From Bacteroidia bacterium (GTDB lineage Bacteria; Bacteroidota; Bacteroidia; M30B66), in the NCBI GenBank assembly GCA_018401705.1, contig JAGYKL010000001.1:98346-148472 (forward strand): 50,127 bases of DNA. Direction: 5' to 3'. Shown piece after piece: positions 1,351 to 10,155 of the stretch; positions within the stretch are counted from its first letter, which is position 1; every line of letters starts with the position of its first letter. Both the position numbers and the translations under genes were made by a program. The notes below the pieces were generated by a model that saw only the letters and a program-made list of their open reading frames with translations, searched no databases and had not been told where the DNA came from.

Positions 1351-4140
1351 ATGCATAACAAAACTATGACACAAATAAATATCTCAAAGACGTTAAGCTT
1401 TGTTTTAATGTTAATTTCTAGCCTTATGCAGAGCAAAGCACAAAATCTTTCAGATGGATTATTGCTTCATTATCCTTTTAATGGAAACACAAGCGACGTT
1501 AGTGTGAATGGTTTCGATGCTACTGGAAATGCATCCTTGACAGAAGATAGATTTGGAAATTCCAATAGTGCATATAGCTTTGATGGAATTGACCAAAGTA
1601 TCAGTTTGCCTTATGATGCAGCACTAAAGCCTCAATTACCAATAAGCGTTTCTGCTTGGGTAAAATTTGAAAACTTTATTCAATCGAATAATAACATCCT
1701 GACTACTGATTATACGGAAAATCAATATTATGGCATTTGGTTAAACACAGATGGAACCGGACGGCCAGCTATAAATTTCGGTGATGGAGACCCTAACAGC
1801 ACTAACAGCACAAGCAGAAGGTCTAAAATTGGAGATAATCAATTAGAAATTGGGATTTGGTATATGATTACCGGTGTAATAAGAGGTGCAACCGACATGG
1901 ACTTGTATGTAAACTGCGAGAATGTTGGTGGAACTTATAGTGGGACTGGTTCAAGTCTCAGCTATACAATCAATCCAGGAGCTATTGGAAGAGGTGATGT
2001 TGCTGGCTCTGCACCATACTTTTTCAGAGGAGCTATTGATGAAGTATACTATTGGGACAGAGCTTTAACTCCTCTTGACATTGAAGTGCTCATCGACACA
2101 GGATACGTTCAAACCATTTATGAAACAATTTGCCAAGGCGACACCTTCTATTATAATAACGTCCCGTATTTTACTTCAGGAACCTATACTATTAATGCTG
2201 CTAATTTAAACTTTTGCATTTCGAATGTCATACTTGAATTAACAGTGATAGAAGATTGCAAGTGTAGATTTAGCAATGACTTTAGCGATGCTGAATCAAT
2301 TCAGATAGTAGGGAATAATCTTTCTGGGATTATATCTGTTGACAACAATGATTTACAAGTTTTTAATTTGTCAAATGGGAGTCAGAACACCAGTGCTTGG
2401 TCTAATCTCTCTACCGACGAAGAAACTTTTGATTCTTTTGTTTGGTCTTTTGAATTCATCCCTGAATATTCAATTTCTCAAAGTCGCGCGTTTGTAGCAC
2501 TTGCTGATTCAAATTTAACTATTGCAAATAGAAGGGTTGGAATCAATTACATTCCGAATCAGCAAGATGCTGTTGCTGTAGTTATTCAACCAGATATTAG
2601 TCCCAATAAAGTTAATGTAACTCTATTGGTCAAAGATGAAAATAAAGCTTACATCTATGACCCTGCTATCACTACAACACAGCCGATTATATCAAACAGC
2701 CTAATTATCCCAAACTCTCCACTTTCTTTGAATAATGATGAAACTTACTTTTTAAGTGTCACAAAATTCAATGAATTAAATTATCAATTAAGTGTATTCA
2801 GTGATTCTGCAAAAACCCAGGAAATAAGTAATTCTCCTATTTGTTTATCTCTTGAATCAACTGAGAATCCACTTATAAATGGCTTAAATTATTTTCAAGT
2901 TGCTAATAATATTCAAAGCAATACTCAAGGTAACTTTCAAGGAGTTATTGATAAAGTTTGTCTTGGAGAATTCACAGCAGACTTTGTAATTGTAGGAACT
3001 GACAGTGCTTGTGCGGGCGAACTTGTGTCCTACTCCATTCCATCATTAAACTCTGGTATAGTAAATTGGGATTTTCCAGCTGATGCTCAATTGATATCTA
3101 GCACTTTTAATTCAATAGAATTAAGCATGGGAGATTTAGCAGGAACAATAACAGCAAATTTAGATTTAGGGTGTTTTCAATTGGAGCTTTCAAAAGATAT
3201 CTCCATTTCTTCTGAGTCAACTGCTCAAATCATAGGTAATACTGCAGTTTGCCCCGGAGACTCAACGTTGTTAACGGTTCCAGGTAATTTTGACTCGATA
3301 TCCTGGAATTCGATTGAAAATAATTCCAACTCTTATTATGCAAGTGAGGGAGTCGTTTTTGTAGAAGCGATAAGCAATTCAGGATGTTCCCTATTAGATA
3401 CTATAACTATAGAATTGCTTCCTGTTGCTGAAATAGAATTAAGTAGCAATCCTGTAGGTTGTGATGATGATTCAGTACTAGTTAATGCTTCCGGAGGTTT
3501 TAGCACTTATATATGGAATGATAGCATTACAGGAGGTTCTACTTTTTATACAAACCCAGGCTTAATTACAGTTCAAAACGCTCCCGGCTCTGGCTGTCTT
3601 TCTTTTGACACGCTGTTTATCGAATCAACTGTCTTAACTGCCTCGTTTTTAGTAGAACCTGACACAATAGTGCAATTAGGTACGGCCTTTTCTTTTTTGG
3701 ATCAAAGCTATGTTCAAGGATCTTCAATAAATAGTTGGAACTGGGACTTTGGTGACAATAGCGCTCAAATTGTATCTCAGTCGCCTTCCCACACCTACGC
3801 AGACACAGGAAGCTATTTGGTATCATTTACTGTATTTTCAGAAGACGGATGCGAATCATTTATCAGTAGCTATGTGAAGGTCGTAAGTGGGATAACTATT
3901 CCAAATGTTTTTAGTCCGAATGGAGATGGTATAAATGATTCTTTTGTGATAGAACTCAATGGAATCAAGGCAAAAGTGAATCTCATGTTATTTAATCGAT
4001 GGGGCAAACTTATTTTTGAAGATTCAGATTATAAAAACAACTGGGCTGGAGAAACATCTACGGATGGTGTTTACTTTTATGTAGCTGATATTGAAAATCT
4101 TGGGATTTTTAAAGGTTACCTGCATTCGTTTGATAATTAG
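1351..4140 (+). CDS. LamG and PKD domain protein with type B (gliding-motility-associated) T9SS C-terminal domain
   Basis: A 929-residue secreted protein. Residues 1-31 form a signal peptide ending in the pattern QSKAQN; Met6 is an alternative start. Residues about 36-250 look like a LamG/concanavalin-type lectin domain (YPFNGNTSDVS, FDGIDQSISLP, FFRGAIDEVYYWDRALT). The middle consists of Cys-rich Ig-like beta modules (CPGDSTLLTVPG, a later GCDDDSVLVNASGG). A PKD domain is at about 764-843 (WNWDFGD, HTYADTGSYLVSFTV). The last 82 residues (848-929) are a type B sorting domain (IPNVFSPNGDGINDSF, LFNRWGKLIFE, WAGE, DGVYFYV). Such proteins cross the outer membrane by the type IX system and stay on or leave the surface; a glycan-binding or adhesive role is an inference from LamG. 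No catalytic motif is visible. The gene stands alone, with its own -7 box and no close partner upstream. Confidence 0.85.
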   Translation: MHNKTMTQINISKTLSFVLMLISSLMQSKAQNLSDGLLLHYPFNGNTSDVSVNGFDATGNASLTEDRFGNSNSAYSFDGIDQSISLPYDAALKPQLPISVSAWVKFENFIQSNNNILTTDYTENQYYGIWLNTDGTGRPAINFGDGDPNSTNSTSRRSKIGDNQLEIGIWYMITGVIRGATDMDLYVNCENVGGTYSGTGSSLSYTINPGAIGRGDVAGSAPYFFRGAIDEVYYWDRALTPLDIEVLIDTGYVQTIYETICQGDTFYYNNVPYFTSGTYTINAANLNFCISNVILELTVIEDCKCRFSNDFSDAESIQIVGNNLSGIISVDNNDLQVFNLSNGSQNTSAWSNLSTDEETFDSFVWSFEFIPEYSISQSRAFVALADSNLTIANRRVGINYIPNQQDAVAVVIQPDISPNKVNVTLLVKDENKAYIYDPAITTTQPIISNSLIIPNSPLSLNNDETYFLSVTKFNELNYQLSVFSDSAKTQEISNSPICLSLESTENPLINGLNYFQVANNIQSNTQGNFQGVIDKVCLGEFTADFVIVGTDSACAGELVSYSIPSLNSGIVNWDFPADAQLISSTFNSIELSMGDLAGTITANLDLGCFQLELSKDISISSESTAQIIGNTAVCPGDSTLLTVPGNFDSISWNSIENNSNSYYASEGVVFVEAISNSGCSLLDTITIELLPVAEIELSSNPVGCDDDSVLVNASGGFSTYIWNDSITGGSTFYTNPGLITVQNAPGSGCLSFDTLFIESTVLTASFLVEPDTIVQLGTAFSFLDQSYVQGSSINSWNWDFGDNSAQIVSQSPSHTYADTGSYLVSFTVFSEDGCESFISSYVKVVSGITIPNVFSPNGDGINDSFVIELNGIKAKVNLMLFNRWGKLIFEDSDYKNNWAGETSTDGVYFYVADIENLGIFKGYLHSFDN

Positions 4141-4256: not shown

Positions 4257-5732
4257 ATGGGCGTTATTCAAAGACAAGGTCTGCAAAGTGCGGTGATTTC
4301 CTATGCGGGAATGTTAACGGGCTTTTTAAGTCTTCTTATTATTCAGCCTTGGTTATTAAGTGCAGAGGAGATTGGTTTAACTCGGGTACTCTATTCATTC
4401 TCTTTTCTCATTTCAACAGTCTTGCCTTTAAGCGCTGTTAATATAACCACCAAGTTTTTTCCCCGATTCAGAAATCCTGAAAAAAAACATCATGGCTTTT
4501 TAGGATTAACTCTGCTTTTCCCAATTGTTGGGGCTGCCATAGTTTTTCCTATTCTTTATCTTCTTAAGGAACCAATCATTAATAGATACATTGACGAATC
4601 TCCATTGTTTGTTGAGTATCTCTTGTATGCCTTTCCGCTTTCGCTAATGCTAGCTGCTATTAGCGTTATTAACAATTACCTTTTTGCCATATTTCGCCCT
4701 TTACTGCCTGCGCTGGCTCAGGAAGTTCTAATCAGACTATTTTTCATTCTTCTGATTGTGTTTTATGCTCAGGGATGGCTAAGTCTGGATGAATTTGTGC
4801 TTGCGTATGTGGGCACATTTCTTCTTCAAATAATTATCCTTGGAGTTCAGATTGTTAGGATTGGGAATTACTCTCTGATACCTAATTTCAAGGTATTCAC
4901 CCAACCTGTAATACGTGAAATGACCGTTTTTGGCTTTACTGTTTTTGGAGCAGGCATTGCCTCCATGGCAATTAAACTGCTGGATGCAGTAATTCTGGGA
5001 CAATATGTACCGCTGGCTTTGGTTGGTGTTTATGGCATAGCGGCATTTATTCCCACGTTTATTGAAGCTCCGGTAAATGCTCTTGATAAAGTCGCGAATT
5101 CTCGCATTGCCCACTCATGGGAAACTGGAGATATGGAGAATATCAAAGAAATCTACTATAAATCTTCACGCTACCTCTATGTACTCGGTGGGTTTCTTTT
5201 CCTGATGGTGGTGCTTAATGTGAAATTTTTGTTCACACTTCTGCCTTCTATTTTTATGGCAGGAATTCCGGTGGTAAAGATTTTAAGTCTTGCAGCTTTG
5301 TTTAATTTGATGACAGGGTCGAACACTGCAATTATTTTTAATAGCTCGAGATTCAAAGCCGGAGCTGCTGCAATTATTAGTGTAGCTGTGGTGAATCTAA
5401 TAATATTATATCTATTGATTCCAGAGTTTGGATTGGTAGGTGCTGCCTGGGCGACTTGTATTTCAAGCTTTTCTTATAATTTCTTCAAGTTTGGATTCAT
5501 TTGGCTGAGATTTAAGCTTCAGCCTTTTGATTTAAGAACTCTTTACATCACAGGAGCTATTCTGGCAAGTTATTTCGTGACTTCTTTCCTCCCACTTTTC
5601 GGAAATATGGTCTTGGATGTTCTTACGCATGCCGCACTTGGCAGTTTTATCTATGGCTTAATCATCTGGTATTCAAGAGCGGCAGATGACCTTAAGGACC
5701 TGCTGCCTTTTGCTAAAAAGAAAGTCGAATGA
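4257..5732 (+). CDS. Wzx-like polysaccharide flippase (MOP superfamily)
   Basis: A 491-residue polytopic membrane protein with roughly 12 to 14 hydrophobic segments over its whole length. The N-terminal pattern (QRQGLQSAVISYAGMLTGFL, then the strongly hydrophobic LLIIQPWLL) and internal segments such as FGAGIASMAIKLLDAVILGQY are typical of oligosaccharide flippases and related MOP exporters, which move undecaprenyl-linked oligosaccharides or lipid II-type substrates across the inner membrane. Length fits the family. It is transcribed after the type IX cargo gene, 116 bases downstream, and is followed by a hairpin terminator at 5776-5815. No polymerase or glycosyltransferase is directly next to it, so the glycan handled is unknown. 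Confidence 0.8.
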   Translation: MGVIQRQGLQSAVISYAGMLTGFLSLLIIQPWLLSAEEIGLTRVLYSFSFLISTVLPLSAVNITTKFFPRFRNPEKKHHGFLGLTLLFPIVGAAIVFPILYLLKEPIINRYIDESPLFVEYLLYAFPLSLMLAAISVINNYLFAIFRPLLPALAQEVLIRLFFILLIVFYAQGWLSLDEFVLAYVGTFLLQIIILGVQIVRIGNYSLIPNFKVFTQPVIREMTVFGFTVFGAGIASMAIKLLDAVILGQYVPLALVGVYGIAAFIPTFIEAPVNALDKVANSRIAHSWETGDMENIKEIYYKSSRYLYVLGGFLFLMVVLNVKFLFTLLPSIFMAGIPVVKILSLAALFNLMTGSNTAIIFNSSRFKAGAAAIISVAVVNLIILYLLIPEFGLVGAAWATCISSFSYNFFKFGFIWLRFKLQPFDLRTLYITGAILASYFVTSFLPLFGNMVLDVLTHAALGSFIYGLIIWYSRAADDLKDLLPFAKKKVE

Positions 5733-5775
5733 TTTTCTATGAGAAGCAAGAAAGAGTGAAGAGTTAGAAGATTAA

Positions 5776-5815
5776 AAAAATCAGAGTACTAATCTTCGCT
5801 CTCGCTCTGATTTTT
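5776..5815. terminator. Bidirectional hairpin terminator between convergent genes
   Basis: AAAAATCAGAG (5776-5786) pairs perfectly with CTCTGATTTTT (5805-5815), leaving an 18-base loop. The A run on one side and T run on the other give a U tail in both directions. It follows the flippase gene (plus); on the minus strand it lies beyond the M1 peptidase gene, after the structured repeat. Confidence 0.7.
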
Positions 5816-5820
5816 ACTTT

Positions 5821-5908
5821 GAAGCTTGCGCCAGGGATGGCAGCGGCAGCTTGTGCTTGCGTTCTTGAGCAAGCATAACTACAGCGTACAGCCCGCCCGG
5901 GCGCCCAA
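5821..5908 (+). repeat. Structured intergenic repeat element of Bacteroidota type (possible small RNA or palindromic repeat)
   Basis: This 88-base stretch is far richer in G and C than its surroundings and is highly structured. GCGCC (5828-5832) pairs with GGCGC (5900-5904); GGG (5834-5836) can pair with CCC (5892-5894); and an apical stem TTGTGCTTGC (5851-5860) pairs with GCAAGCATAA (5869-5878) with one G-U pair and an 8-base loop. The halves carry GGGATGGCAGCGGCA and TACAGCGTACAGCCC. From memory, similar GGGAT-GCAG-GG...TAGCG-A-AGCCC elements recur between genes in many Bacteroidota genomes; that recall is not checked here. The element lies between two convergent genes, 1 base from the stop of the peptidase gene. 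Whether it is a transcribed RNA, a transcript-end protector or a mobile repeat cannot be told from one copy. The orientation given is by analogy. Confidence 0.5.
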
Positions 5909-5909
5909 A

Positions 5910-8900
5910 TTAAAATGCTCTTCCTACACCCAAAAGCCAGCGAAATTGAACGTAATCTGGCGAAACATCTGGAGTTCGTGTGAGCAATAAAGGCATGTCG
6001 AACCTGATTGTGAGGGGTTTTTCCATGTTTAATGAGCCCCATTTCTTAATCGTAAATGCAGTTCCTAAACCTGCATCAGCTCTCAAATCGGTGAACGCCA
6101 TTTTCTCGCCTACTCCATTTGCCTGAATTAAACCTGCATCAGCAAAAAGATACATGTTGATTTTAAGCCAATTGCGAGTGAATTTCGGTCTAATCGGAAA
6201 TAACCTATCAAACTCAAGTTCGGCATTTACGGCTGCGCCTGAATTTCCACTGTATGCTGGAACTATAGCTCCATCGGGGCGTTCATAAGGCAACAAATAA
6301 CCGGCATAGCCACGAAGATTTAAACCACCGCCATGCTGGAAATTATTGGTAGAAGTGCCGAAACCATTCCAATCCTGAGGAAAGAATGCTGCAGATCTCA
6401 CGAATTTATTTTCCATCATTTCCTCTGGTGAAGCTCCTGCTAAGAACAATGCTGATTCGGGTGCTAGATTAGAACCAGTGCCAATCTGACCAATCACACG
6501 AGTATGAAAACCAAATTTACCCAAGTAGTTTTTGTTTACAACCTCAAATCTCAATTGAGTATAATCATAGTCAGAACCCGGAGCTGAAGACCTCAACATG
6601 AGTGTCATTTTTCCATTGCCTTTCTGATAATTATATCTGTGTTCAGCCCCAACATTTAAGGTATTATTCCATTTCTGGGTAACCCAATCGTTTCTGTAAA
6701 TGAGATAGTTAACATCTGTTGTATCAGGCCTGTACATGGCTTTGAAATATGCAAAAAGTGTATTGTTACCCTTGCGATTTTCAAGTTCAAGGCCCAATTT
6801 ACCTAGCGCTAATCCATCTAAATATCTCAATTGCGCATTAACGCTTGCCCCCTTTATAAAATTGTTAATCGGATTGGTGTATGATGCATTAAATGAAACC
6901 GGGTTATAGCTATTGAAGACCGTATCGAAATTCTTTCTAACTTTTTGAACACCAGTATTTAACCAAAAGCTAAATTCAAACTGATGCTTGTATTGCATGT
7001 AGTTTCCATTCAGATGTAGTCCGAATTTTACACCATCGTAGTAATTATACCAAACATCAGGTCTTAAGAAAAACTCATAATGCTCATTATCAGGACGATT
7101 GTAAATTCTTGAATCAAAGCTAATTACCGACTTATTCTTAAGCTTATTGTCTATGCGATAGACATCGGCCAGTCGGCCAGATGTGTCAATTTCTACGTTA
7201 GAAAGCTTGGCTGGAATCTCAATGTTGGCAGTGTATTCAGGCCTAAGCAATCCCCAACCTATCCAACGTGGAAGTGTGGTAGCTTTTGTTTCCTTTTCGA
7301 ACCAGGTATTAGGGATGTAGTAATCGTACTTTTTGCCATCCATGTCTGTTACAGTAAAATCAATAGGCATTTGCATTTCGCCTTTTCGGCGGAAGGTGAT
7401 AGCGTATTTTCCGTCGCCTTTGCGCTTAACCTTTTTAATGCTGTAGTCGACAGATTTAGTGGTTTCCAGCCACTGATCGAAGAACCAGTTCAGGTCGGTT
7501 TTTGTGTAATCGATGATTGATTGGCGGAAGTCTTCAAAATAGGGATGAGCTATTTTGTATTGATCAAAATAGTGCATAAAGGCCCTCTGAAAAAGCTCAT
7601 CACCCAGAACAAGCTGAAGGTTAAAAAGCATTGTAGCCGTTTTGTAATACACGTTTCCATATCCTCCACCATGGCGCAAGGCACCACCAAAATCATCAGA
7701 GTGTGTATTCAAAGCCGGGTCATCCTGTTTCAGTGCATCACGGAGGTAACCGTAATAAGCTCTTGAAAAGCGGATTTCGTCAGGTTTAGTATATTTTTCT
7801 ACATATTTATTGGCAAATTTCCCGTTGATTGTGTATTTGCCATCAATTCTTTCCTGAGCCCAAACTGTTAGGAACTGCGTAAAACCTTCATCGAGAGAAG
7901 CTCTGTAGGTTTCGTTGTTTCCAACCATTCCGAAGAACCAGTTATGTCCAATTTCGTGAGCAAACAATCCACGATAGCCTGGATCAGAGCCGCCATCAAG
8001 AGTAATCATTGGATATTCCATACCATCGCGGGCATCGGCTACTATCATTTTATTGTAAACGTACATGCCAATGTCGCGTGAATACACATCTACAATTTTG
8101 GCGGCATATTCAGCGGCATTTTGCCAGCGTGAAGCATGCGGTTCGCAAACCAAAGCCTGAGCTATAATCTCATCTCCGGGCAGGCCCGAAGGATTGCAGG
8201 TAACTTCTCCAATACGGTAAGTAGGGTCGGCTGTCCATGCAAAATCGTGTACATTAATTGCTCTGAATTTCCATGTTTTACGCTTCGCGGGATTGTAAGG
8301 TGTAATGATAGAAGGTTTTTCTTCCCAAGGTTTGCTTGCGAAATTCTTTATATCCAGTTTTTCTCTAAGATCGTCGGGAAATACTTCTTCGGGATTCATA
8401 AGTGCTCCGGTGGCGCCTACCACAAAGTCATCGCTAAAATTCAATTCGACTTCAAAGGAGCCGAAATCACCATAAAATTCTTTGCCAAGATGTTGGTCGG
8501 TAGTCCAGCCGAATTTGCGGTCGTATACAGATATTCGCGGGTACCAATGAACACCATTAAAATGCTTAAACCCATAGCTACCATATTCTTTCATACGGCG
8601 ACGGATATTTCCGCGGTAATCGAAATAAGTTACAAAGTCAATGTCGAAATCAACATTTGCTCCCGGAACTAAAGGTTCGTTAAGCCATACTTTTAGAATG
8701 GTGTTATCGAGCTCTGTTTTGGTTTCTTTTCCTTTAACTTTCAGGCTTTTAATTTCAGTTCCTTTGCCTTCTTTTTCATAGGGTCCCCAAACAGTTGGAT
8801 AATCGTTAGCTTCATGCAGTTCTGCATTGTAAGAGCCCGGCTGGAAAGCATTCTGATACAAATGAAAGTAAACGTAGGTAAGTGTATCAGGCGAATTATT

Positions 8901-9179
8901 GAAGTACTTTAAGTTTAGGGAAGCAACAATCTGGTCGGTTTTTTCATCGACAAAGGCTTTGATTTTATACATCACATCTTGTTGCCAGTATCCCTCGAAT
9001 GGCTTTCGGTTTTTCCAGTATTGGGCATTCTGAGGCGAATTGTAAACCGTATTTATTTGTTCATTTTCTCTTTTTGTGTGGCCAGAGTTGCCTTCTCTTA
9101 TGCCAGTTTCAATTGATTGAGCCTGAACATATAAAGTAAATAGCAAACAAAGAATTACACCTAAAAATCTTCTCATCAT
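5910..9179 (-). CDS. M1 family metallopeptidase fused to a C-terminal outer-membrane beta-barrel
   Basis: A secreted protein of about 1089 residues. The chosen start is the Met pair at 9179/9176 (MMRRFLGVILCLLFTLYVQAQ), which gives a clean signal peptide; an upstream frame start at 9230 would overlap the neighbouring gene. The N-terminal part is an M1 (gluzincin) aminopeptidase: the zinc motif HEIGH is at about 408-412, with the third ligand Glu after 18 residues (HExxH-x18-E, in ETYRASLDEGF), and DGMEYP in the place of the GxMEN substrate loop. From about residue 650 the sequence turns into alternating beta strands with aromatic girdles, Gly-rich turns (NNFQHGGGLNLRGYAGYLLP) and a final Phe, like BamA/surface-antigen barrels. 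The enzyme probably sits at the outer membrane and trims peptides. It is the last gene of the DUF4783-nadC-yihY operon, 34 bases after the YihY stop. Confidence 0.82.
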   Translation of the reverse strand: MMRRFLGVILCLLFTLYVQAQSIETGIREGNSGHTKRENEQINTVYNSPQNAQYWKNRKPFEGYWQQDVMYKIKAFVDEKTDQIVASLNLKYFNNSPDTLTYVYFHLYQNAFQPGSYNAELHEANDYPTVWGPYEKEGKGTEIKSLKVKGKETKTELDNTILKVWLNEPLVPGANVDFDIDFVTYFDYRGNIRRRMKEYGSYGFKHFNGVHWYPRISVYDRKFGWTTDQHLGKEFYGDFGSFEVELNFSDDFVVGATGALMNPEEVFPDDLREKLDIKNFASKPWEEKPSIITPYNPAKRKTWKFRAINVHDFAWTADPTYRIGEVTCNPSGLPGDEIIAQALVCEPHASRWQNAAEYAAKIVDVYSRDIGMYVYNKMIVADARDGMEYPMITLDGGSDPGYRGLFAHEIGHNWFFGMVGNNETYRASLDEGFTQFLTVWAQERIDGKYTINGKFANKYVEKYTKPDEIRFSRAYYGYLRDALKQDDPALNTHSDDFGGALRHGGGYGNVYYKTATMLFNLQLVLGDELFQRAFMHYFDQYKIAHPYFEDFRQSIIDYTKTDLNWFFDQWLETTKSVDYSIKKVKRKGDGKYAITFRRKGEMQMPIDFTVTDMDGKKYDYYIPNTWFEKETKATTLPRWIGWGLLRPEYTANIEIPAKLSNVEIDTSGRLADVYRIDNKLKNKSVISFDSRIYNRPDNEHYEFFLRPDVWYNYYDGVKFGLHLNGNYMQYKHQFEFSFWLNTGVQKVRKNFDTVFNSYNPVSFNASYTNPINNFIKGASVNAQLRYLDGLALGKLGLELENRKGNNTLFAYFKAMYRPDTTDVNYLIYRNDWVTQKWNNTLNVGAEHRYNYQKGNGKMTLMLRSSAPGSDYDYTQLRFEVVNKNYLGKFGFHTRVIGQIGTGSNLAPESALFLAGASPEEMMENKFVRSAAFFPQDWNGFGTSTNNFQHGGGLNLRGYAGYLLPYERPDGAIVPAYSGNSGAAVNAELEFDRLFPIRPKFTRNWLKINMYLFADAGLIQANGVGEKMAFTDLRADAGLGTAFTIKKWGSLNMEKPLTIRFDMPLLLTRTPDVSPDYVQFRWLLGVGRAF

Positions 9180-9213
9180 CACATTAATTTGCCCGAAAGT
9201 AATAAAAGGTAAT

Positions 9214-10155
9214 TTATTCTTGGCTATCAACCTTCACTCTACTTGCCAGATGTTTAATACCAACATTAAATTCATATCCTGCGAGTAGCAGTGAGGCATT
9301 TAGGTTAATTAACACCAAAACAGCAATGAGAGCTCCAACTGATCCGTAAATTGTGTTGTAAGTGCCGAAATTCTTTACGAAAAAAGCAAAACCTACAATG
9401 AGCAGCATCATTAACAGGGAGGTTGCAACAGAACCTATGGAAAGAAACTTTGACCGTCTATTTTGTGGAGGTCCAAGAAAGTAAAGAAAGCTTACCGAGA
9501 ACAGAATGAGTAAATAGAAGGTAATCCACTTACCAACTACAATAAGAACGTAGTTAATGCCATATGATATAAGCTCTTTTGAAATTAAAAAATCGAGGGC
9601 CAGATTGGTAAAGATCATCAATGAAATAGCCAATACCAGCAAGGTTATTAGTATGATTGTAAGCGAGAGTGAAACAAGTAGAATTTTCCAAGCTGGTCGG
9701 TTATCGTCGGTAACATCACTGGCATTGAAGGAAGCAATAATAGACTGAACTCCCGTTACGGCATAGAACAATGCAAACAAAACACCGAAAGAAAGTAAGC
9801 CATCTCGTTGTTGACTAATGATATCTAAGATGGTGTTCTTAACGGCCAAATAAGAGGCAGGCGGTAAAACTTGCTGAAGTGCATTAAGCAGTTTAAACTC
9901 AAAATCACTAATTGGCAGATATGCAATAAGGCTAAAAAGGAAGATAATTGATGGGAAGATTGCCATGAAGAAGTTAAAAGATACCGCTGCAGCCCTCATA
10001 GAAATTCTTGAGCTGGTTAAACTCGTTTTAAATTGCTTGGCCACTTCGAGCAAACTAAGCTCAGGAAAGCCCGGAAAACTTAGTCTATCGAGCAAATCAA
10101 TGAGCTGCGCAATTATTGGCAGCTTAAAAATGAATTGCAGAATTTTTGCAAGCAT
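9214..10155 (-). CDS. YihY/BrkB family inner-membrane protein
   Basis: A 313-residue integral membrane protein with about six hydrophobic helices. Family signatures seen are ISMRAAAVSFNFFMAIFPSIIFLFSL near residues 50-75 (quoted here as a region, with the AAAVSFNFFMAIFPS core), NASDVTDDNRPAWK in the middle, YGSVGALIAVLVLINLNASLLLAGYEFN near the C-terminus (key residues YGSVGA and GYEFN). The family was once annotated as ribonuclease BN, which is not supported; its true role is not settled. It follows nadC with a 1-base gap, so the two are co-transcribed and probably translationally coupled. Confidence 0.85.
   Translation of the reverse strand: MLAKILQFIFKLPIIAQLIDLLDRLSFPGFPELSLLEVAKQFKTSLTSSRISMRAAAVSFNFFMAIFPSIIFLFSLIAYLPISDFEFKLLNALQQVLPPASYLAVKNTILDIISQQRDGLLSFGVLFALFYAVTGVQSIIASFNASDVTDDNRPAWKILLVSLSLTIILITLLVLAISLMIFTNLALDFLISKELISYGINYVLIVVGKWITFYLLILFSVSFLYFLGPPQNRRSKFLSIGSVATSLLMMLLIVGFAFFVKNFGTYNTIYGSVGALIAVLVLINLNASLLLAGYEFNVGIKHLASRVKVDSQE

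Follow-up and report, generated by a model that had tools for sequence, protein, structure and literature searches.

A Flavo-1 (RF01705) copy between convergent genes of a Bacteroidia bacterium and the dispersed intergenic family to which it belongs

The locus and its structured element

We analysed a 50,127-nucleotide stretch from the genome of a Bacteroidia bacterium (GenBank assembly GCA_018401705.1, contig JAGYKL010000001.1, positions 98,346 to 148,472 of the forward strand), hereafter the window, in which positions are counted from its first letter. A flippase-like gene and an M1-family peptidase gene converge on the short intergenic segment studied here (Table 1). Signs of a Bacteroidota host are found elsewhere in the window, namely a Bacteroidales small SRP RNA (RF04183, 34751-34857, minus strand, 101 bits) and, at 1351-4140 on the plus strand, a gene whose secreted-type product carries Laminin_G_3 and PKD domains together with CHU_C, a type IX secretion domain. 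The nearest named loci for the flippase gene, just three and all distant, are from Bacteroidetes.

The initial annotation had described positions 5821-5908 as a GC-rich element unlike its surroundings, lying between two convergent genes and folding into an apical hairpin (5851-5860 with 5869-5878) enclosed by outer pairs (5828-5832 with 5900-5904). All of these features are present: the GC fraction reaches 0.60 at 5820-5899 as compared to 0.33-0.46 in nearby DNA, the apical stem comprises ten pairs, one of them G.U, the outer stem comprises five, and the flanking genes do converge. Only the extent required correction, as the exact unit runs from 5828 to 5909 on the plus strand and leaves out positions 5821-5827. 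The folding energy of the element, taken alone, is weak evidence. Positions 5800-5930 (131 bases) gave a z score of -0.88, with 34 of 200 shuffles folding as well, and positions 5824-5909 (86 bases) gave -1.93 when folded as RNA (11 of 200 shuffles as good) and -0.70 when folded as DNA. Strong evidence, drawn from sequence comparison, comes from homology and is presented below.

An AT-rich hairpin adjoins the element at 5781-5822 and folds better than nearly all shuffled sequences (z -2.83; 1 of 200 shuffles as good). It is separate from the element and possibly acts as a bidirectional terminator of both convergent genes, although a simple terminator scan listed no terminator beside the element. 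No promoter-like site was detected between 5700 and 6000 with a scan model that does not cover Bacteroidota promoters.

Table 1. Coordinates of the Flavo-1 copy, its parts and the neighbouring features in the window.
Feature	Position	Strand	Evidence or remark
Complete class I copy of Flavo-1 (P1, arm A, arm B remnant, CCAAA tail)	5828..5909	+	RF01705 41.0 bits over 5825-5902; model R2 44.5 bits; 3' end placed at CCAAA by comparison with class I
Outer helix P1, 5' strand GCGCC (partner 5900-5904)	5828..5832	+	Fold; P1 partner in 47/50 class I copies, window copy among them
Arm A, the hairpin of the Rfam model	5834..5894	+	Rfam alignment, covariation
Arm A helices	5834-5836/5892-5894, 5838-5839/5889-5890, 5843-5844/5884-5885, 5848-5849/5879-5880	+	Rfam alignment, covariation
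5' sides of two 3x3 internal loops	5840..5847	+	G.A pairs near-invariant in family; sides of loop 2 switch together
Loop 1, GCA opposite GTA	5840-5842/5886-5888	+
Loop 2, GGC opposite ACA (GGC/AYA type)	5845-5847/5881-5883	+
Apical hairpin (stem 5851-5860/5869-5878, loop 5861-5868)	5851..5878	+	Fold
Arm B remnant (second small class I hairpin), shrunk to GCCCG	5895..5899	+	Class I comparison
Outer helix P1, 3' strand GGCGC	5900..5904	+	Fold, class I comparison
Conserved 3' tail CCAAA, abutting peptidase stop codon 5910-5912	5905..5909	+	CCAAA in 31/47 class I copies
Flippase-like gene (PF01943, Polysacc_synt), outside element	4257..5732	+
M1-family peptidase gene (PF01433), outside element	5910..9230	-
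AT-rich hairpin, possible terminator, outside element	5781..5822	+	z -2.83

Flavo-1 membership and the three-helix form of class I

In a permissive Rfam scan of 301 bases, the single credible match was Flavo-1 (RF01705), at 41.0 bits and E 1.1e-7 over the full length of the model (positions 1-76). Because this score lies 1 bit below the curated gathering threshold of 42 bits, we refer to the window copy as a Flavo-1 of a variant class and not as a textbook member. In order to avoid circularity, a further model, R2, was built from 28 copies found in other genomes only, with no sequence from the genome of the window. R2 matched the window copy at 44.5 bits, with E 3.2e-8 over 90 kb, and each of the six further copies in its genome at 42 to 64 bits. 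This genome carries at least seven Flavo-1 copies, three of them above the Rfam cut-off; the search that recovered the six others had passed over the window copy itself. These other copies were visible to structure-aware search only: within the same genome, plain BLAST matched the element to itself alone, a strict arm pattern recovered the window element alone, and an over-strict pattern scan of the genome contigs gave no match. Like Flavo-1, the window copy has an A.G mismatch (A5837 opposite G5891) and two 3x3 internal loops with the conserved G.A pairs. On the strength of this homology we assign the element to Flavo-1, class I, and the intergenic repeat of Bacteroidota to which the initial annotation referred can be given this name.

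The short helices of arm A, separated by the A.G mismatch and the two 3x3 loops, covary strongly. Across 35 copies, taken from this genome and from others, standard pairs fill 93.5% of the pair cells, both sides have changed in 13 of the 15 pairs, and double-change cells number 108 versus 33 in shuffles. When the genome of the window was left out, the remaining 28 copies gave 95.9% standard pairs, both-side changes in 12 of 15 pairs and 88 double-change cells versus 25 in shuffles; one of five covariation measures (further pair types) was not above shuffles in this set. For the outermost pairs of arm A, the free-energy fold favours a register that is slipped. The G.A columns are near-invariant (35, 34, 35 and 35 of the 35 copies). 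Loop 2 occurs either as GGA opposite GNA or as GGC opposite AYA and its two sides switch jointly in most copies, mixed forms being a minority in G189, a genome with many copies (GGA/ATA, for instance, in 2 of 73). The motif GnAGCGGA is common to both arms, and the core is therefore two-fold symmetric.

A double-strand cruciform is expected to accumulate G.U and A.C mismatches equally. On the strand of the Rfam model, transition mismatches in G189 comprise 25 G.U and 6 A.C (p 0.0009), and those outside G189 comprise 5 and 2, the bulge pair and the last apical pair being excluded from these counts. The excess of G.U over A.C indicates that the selected fold is that of the Rfam strand as a single strand, either RNA or ssDNA.

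Sorting of 141 copies (73 from G189 and 68 from elsewhere) by the foot of the hairpin yielded 50 copies of class I, with the foot GCGTN or a variant, 84 of class II, with TAGCC or a similar foot, and 7 of neither. Class I was picked from the 5' side only. An exact complement of the outer 5-mer was found downstream in 47 of the 50 copies, as compared to 152 of 1950 (8%) in a mismatched control pairing each 5-mer with the 3' flank of a copy bearing a different 5-mer. Some of the 50 copies are close sisters, with 20 distinct 7-base feet among them. Between the hairpin and the P1 partner lies a second small arm, arm B: the longest end helix here averages 3.9 versus 1.85 in shuffles and is individually significant in 17 of 45 cases. 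The partner is followed by CCAAA in 31 of 47 copies. The outer pairs at 5828-5832 and 5900-5904 are the P1 helix of this class; the window copy has kept P1 and reduced arm B to a few bases, arm B being likewise shrunken in a copy from a family relative (L034). Since no outer-helix partner rose above background at any offset in class II, we claim the three-helix form for class I alone.

In three other class I copies from the genome of the window (L015, L016 and L018) arm B carries GTGAGCC motifs, and in L015 and L016 it also holds GAATGGC-like tandem units, which gives the impression that another repeat has inserted itself there. A near-identical class I pair of G189 (L173:4969 and L162:2959) has in common an arm B that is almost 70 bases long and contains a long AT-rich palindrome. 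In several copies a module like GGAGTTCAGTGAACTTCGTTTGC replaces, or sits inside, part of a Flavo-1 arm (L185:2963 and L157:2975 in G189; L268, L269 and L274 near the orthologous site B described below), and looks like a composite or sister repeat.

Copy number, gene context and orthologous sites

At E <= 1e-4, with no more than 29 candidates scored per genome, Flavo-1 was found in 55 of the 149 genomes representing the class; in one genus it was found in 38 of 40. The segment is neither single-copy, unconserved nor lacking in covariation, the outcome that the initial annotation had named as telling against a repeat element. Within this genus the copies found numbered none in two genomes, one in two others and up to at least 89 (all 89 scored). 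Two one-contig genomes, G189 and G163, hold at least 78 and at least 56 copies, respectively; all counts for the genome of the window, the class, the genus, G189 and G163 are lower bounds, because scoring covered only some of the candidates. In the set of 299 genomes, 143 were not scorable. None of 14 control genomes gave a match at E <= 1e-4, and five of them gave matches below the cut-off at a looser threshold.

The copies lie between genes, as proposed in the initial annotation, without a consistent orientation relative to them, and the convergent position of the window copy is not typical. With genes called as simple long ORFs and no trained gene finder, 73 model hits in G189 fell into 46 tandem, 14 divergent and 6 convergent placements, with 3 more hits lying within an ORF call and 4 at edges, so that convergent placement accounts for 6 of the 66 scored copies. 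Tandem copies of G189 were more often antisense (32) than sense (14; n=46, p 0.011). This excess was not repeated among 69 copies outside G189, a set without contig-edge copies and without loci repeating copies in longer stretches, where tandem copies were antisense in 14 cases and sense in 18 (n=32). In the pooled class-sorted set, from which 8 further copies at an edge or inside an ORF were dropped, 30 were sense and 46 antisense (p 0.08). A best-arc search, carried out with the origin not located, gave no strand bias at the scale of replichores in G189 or G163 (permutation p 0.61 and 0.80).

At the site occupied in the window, an element is present at 2 of 23 peptidase loci, that of the window and that of genome G002, on the same side and the same strand, the G002 copy being decayed (25 bits). 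The element at this site was probably acquired before the two lineages split and inherited since, perhaps without a role for its two neighbour genes. Two further sites were examined in a 17 kb syntenic block, for which G189 was set against 20 congeners. At site A a same-strand element is found in 10 of the 14 congeners whose left flank aligned; the right neighbour differs in two of the 14, one without the element (L281) and one with it (L285). Six congener copies and that of G189 differ wholly at this site in apical stem and loop-2 type, each of them being paired. Site B displays a presence/absence polymorphism: the element was detected by the model in 3 of the 20 congeners, or in 4 when one decayed copy read by eye is added, and the other 16 carry 34-214 bases of other intergenic DNA and no element. 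The comparison of both sites indicates that copies have been long kept as well as gained or lost. Close to its two ends the element has a short inverted repeat, P1, of about 5 bases; the empty orthologous sites have diverged too far for a target duplication to be visible in them.

A link with RAYT genes, of which locus L030 had given a first sign, was rejected, as 79 loci with Y1_Tnp matches (367 kb) held no more Flavo-1 than background: five strong and two weak elements versus 8.2 expected from the density in G189, not from that of each genome. RAYT genes carry palindromes of their own that are different from Flavo-1. Genomes G017, G023 and G139 contain Flavo-1 and no Y1_Tnp match, and G013 and G015 contain 8 and 7 Y1_Tnp matches and no Flavo-1. 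Neither of the tetranucleotide tags GTAG and CGTC occurs at the foot of the hairpin, which bears GCGTN or a variant in class I and mostly TAGCC in class II. Divergent Y1_Tnp (RAYT-like) genes of about 180 amino acids with short palindromes of their own were observed at loci L194-L207, and genome G110 has 10 Y1_Tnp matches. A blastn search with one class I copy gave no match in plasmids and phages, and three patterns applied to viral contigs recovered one locus, a class I Flavo-1 (L288:8472-8537, plus strand) in a phage-like IMG/VR contig. Given how much the copies vary, these plasmid, phage and viral negatives are weak.

Readings of the repeat and comparison with known systems

Flavo-1 has been an orphan RNA family since 2010. 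It was marked 'y' under RNA and 'n' under cis-regulatory by Weinberg et al. 2010 (PMC2864571), is placed among the most abundant sRNA families in a review whose entry gives no function (PMC9029176), and is mentioned in a transcriptome study that, at that mention, could not say what it does (PMC9723704). Among titles and abstract openings, subscription journals aside, we found no description of Flavo-1 as mobile or three-helix. The family itself is known; the new parts are the three-helix form of class I, the within-genus counts and the comparison of sites.

We lean, with some reserve, to the reading that Flavo-1 is a non-autonomous repeat, dispersed through intergenic DNA, which spreads and disappears between genomes. 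Its copies would move, the folded single strand, ssDNA or RNA, would be the substrate of a putative trans-acting enzyme, and the intergenic placement would reflect tolerance. In its favour count the uneven copy number among congeners, the polymorphism at site B, the occupation of only 2 of 23 peptidase loci, the location of just 3 of 73 G189 copies inside an ORF call, the near-invariant G.A columns, the excess of G.U over A.C and the inconsistent orientation to genes. Counted against it are that no transposition, target duplication, exact insertion boundary or enzyme was found, that the replichore strand bias which a lagging-strand ssDNA element might show is missing, and that G189 has an antisense excess, one not repeated in other genomes. 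Same-strand retention at site A could mean a local function, and the preference for G.U over A.C fits RNA equally. The initial annotation had offered a transcript stabiliser, a small RNA or a mobile palindrome; the data incline to the last, without settling the matter.

The main rival, which we regard as somewhat unlikely, is an RNA element borne on transcripts, for instance a stabiliser in a 3' or 5' UTR, a processing signal or a protein-binding structure, selected where it is transcribed. Tolerance of G.U over A.C on the sense strand, conserved sheared-type G.A loops, and long same-strand retention at site A and beside the peptidase gene in G002 would all suit such an element, as would the coincidence of several 5' transcribed regions of Flavobacterium psychrophilum with Flavo-1 hits (PMC9723704). 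The same study, in the part concerned, nevertheless reports hits that are sense or antisense to transcribed regions and many that lie in none. Moreover, G.U makes up just 25 of 944 pair cells in G189, gene orientation is inconsistent, the scan of 5700-6000, made without Bacteroidota promoters, revealed no promoter-like site, and a range from 0 to at least 89 copies within a genus would be odd for a regulator. A free small RNA gene, as suggested by the Rfam type (Gene; sRNA) and by the inclusion of Flavo-1 among sRNAs in PMC9029176, appears improbable given the dozens of copies in rich genomes, their occurrence in both orientations beside genes and the lack of a promoter-like site at the window copy.

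We consider it equally improbable that Flavo-1 is a REP element which RAYT (Y1 tyrosine) transposases mobilise in trans. It is indeed a dispersed intergenic hairpin with irregular pairs in a phylum where RAYTs are common, and atypical structures have been reported beside Bacteroidetes RAYTs (PMC6006769); against this stand the 7 Flavo-1 in 367 kb of Y1_Tnp loci where about 8 were expected, the different palindromes of the RAYT genes and the mismatch, in both directions, between genomes with Flavo-1 and genomes with Y1_Tnp. Very improbable, finally, is a mutational by-product in which quasi-palindrome correction keeps the arms paired in the absence of selection. Apical stems do vary freely and, also among copies at a single orthologous site, remain paired, but such correction would erase the near-invariant G.A mismatches and leaves dispersal unexplained.

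The reading as a spreading repeat can be taken further, to a phylum-wide non-autonomous mobile family whose folded strand, three-helix with paired G.A loops in class I, would be copied by a non-RAYT enzyme through an intermediate of ssDNA or reverse-transcribed RNA. In this full form we hold the proposal to be unlikely; if true by way of reverse-transcribed RNA, Flavo-1 would be a bacterial counterpart of a SINE. Should the family be mobile at all, its sRNA label in Rfam misleads the annotation of many Bacteroidota genomes. Counts from none to dozens in a single genus, gain or loss at orthologous sites, the lack of a fixed orientation and the three-helix form raise a testable question, namely what copies Flavo-1 and from which strand.

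MITEs and ERIC-like palindromes share with Flavo-1 a non-coding, intergenic and folded nature, a size of roughly 80-150 bases and an uneven copy number, and the presence/absence polymorphism at orthologous sites is a further trait in common with MITEs. In contrast to these elements, Flavo-1 showed neither long terminal inverted repeats nor, in the much diverged empty sites, a target duplication, and no parent transposase came to light. REP/RAYT elements, as portrayed in PMC3733652 and PMC6006769, resemble it as short multi-copy intergenic palindromes with irregular pairs; Flavo-1 departs from them in lacking the GTAG/CGTC foot tag and a link to RAYT genes. The closest system remains RF01705 itself, from which the window copy differs by a score 1 bit below the cut-off and with which it shares the arm A hairpin, the internal loops, the covarying pairs, the phylum Bacteroidota and a full-length match. 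In the Rfam model the two flanks are unpaired; the P1 helix, arm B and the CCAAA tail are what class I copies have in addition.
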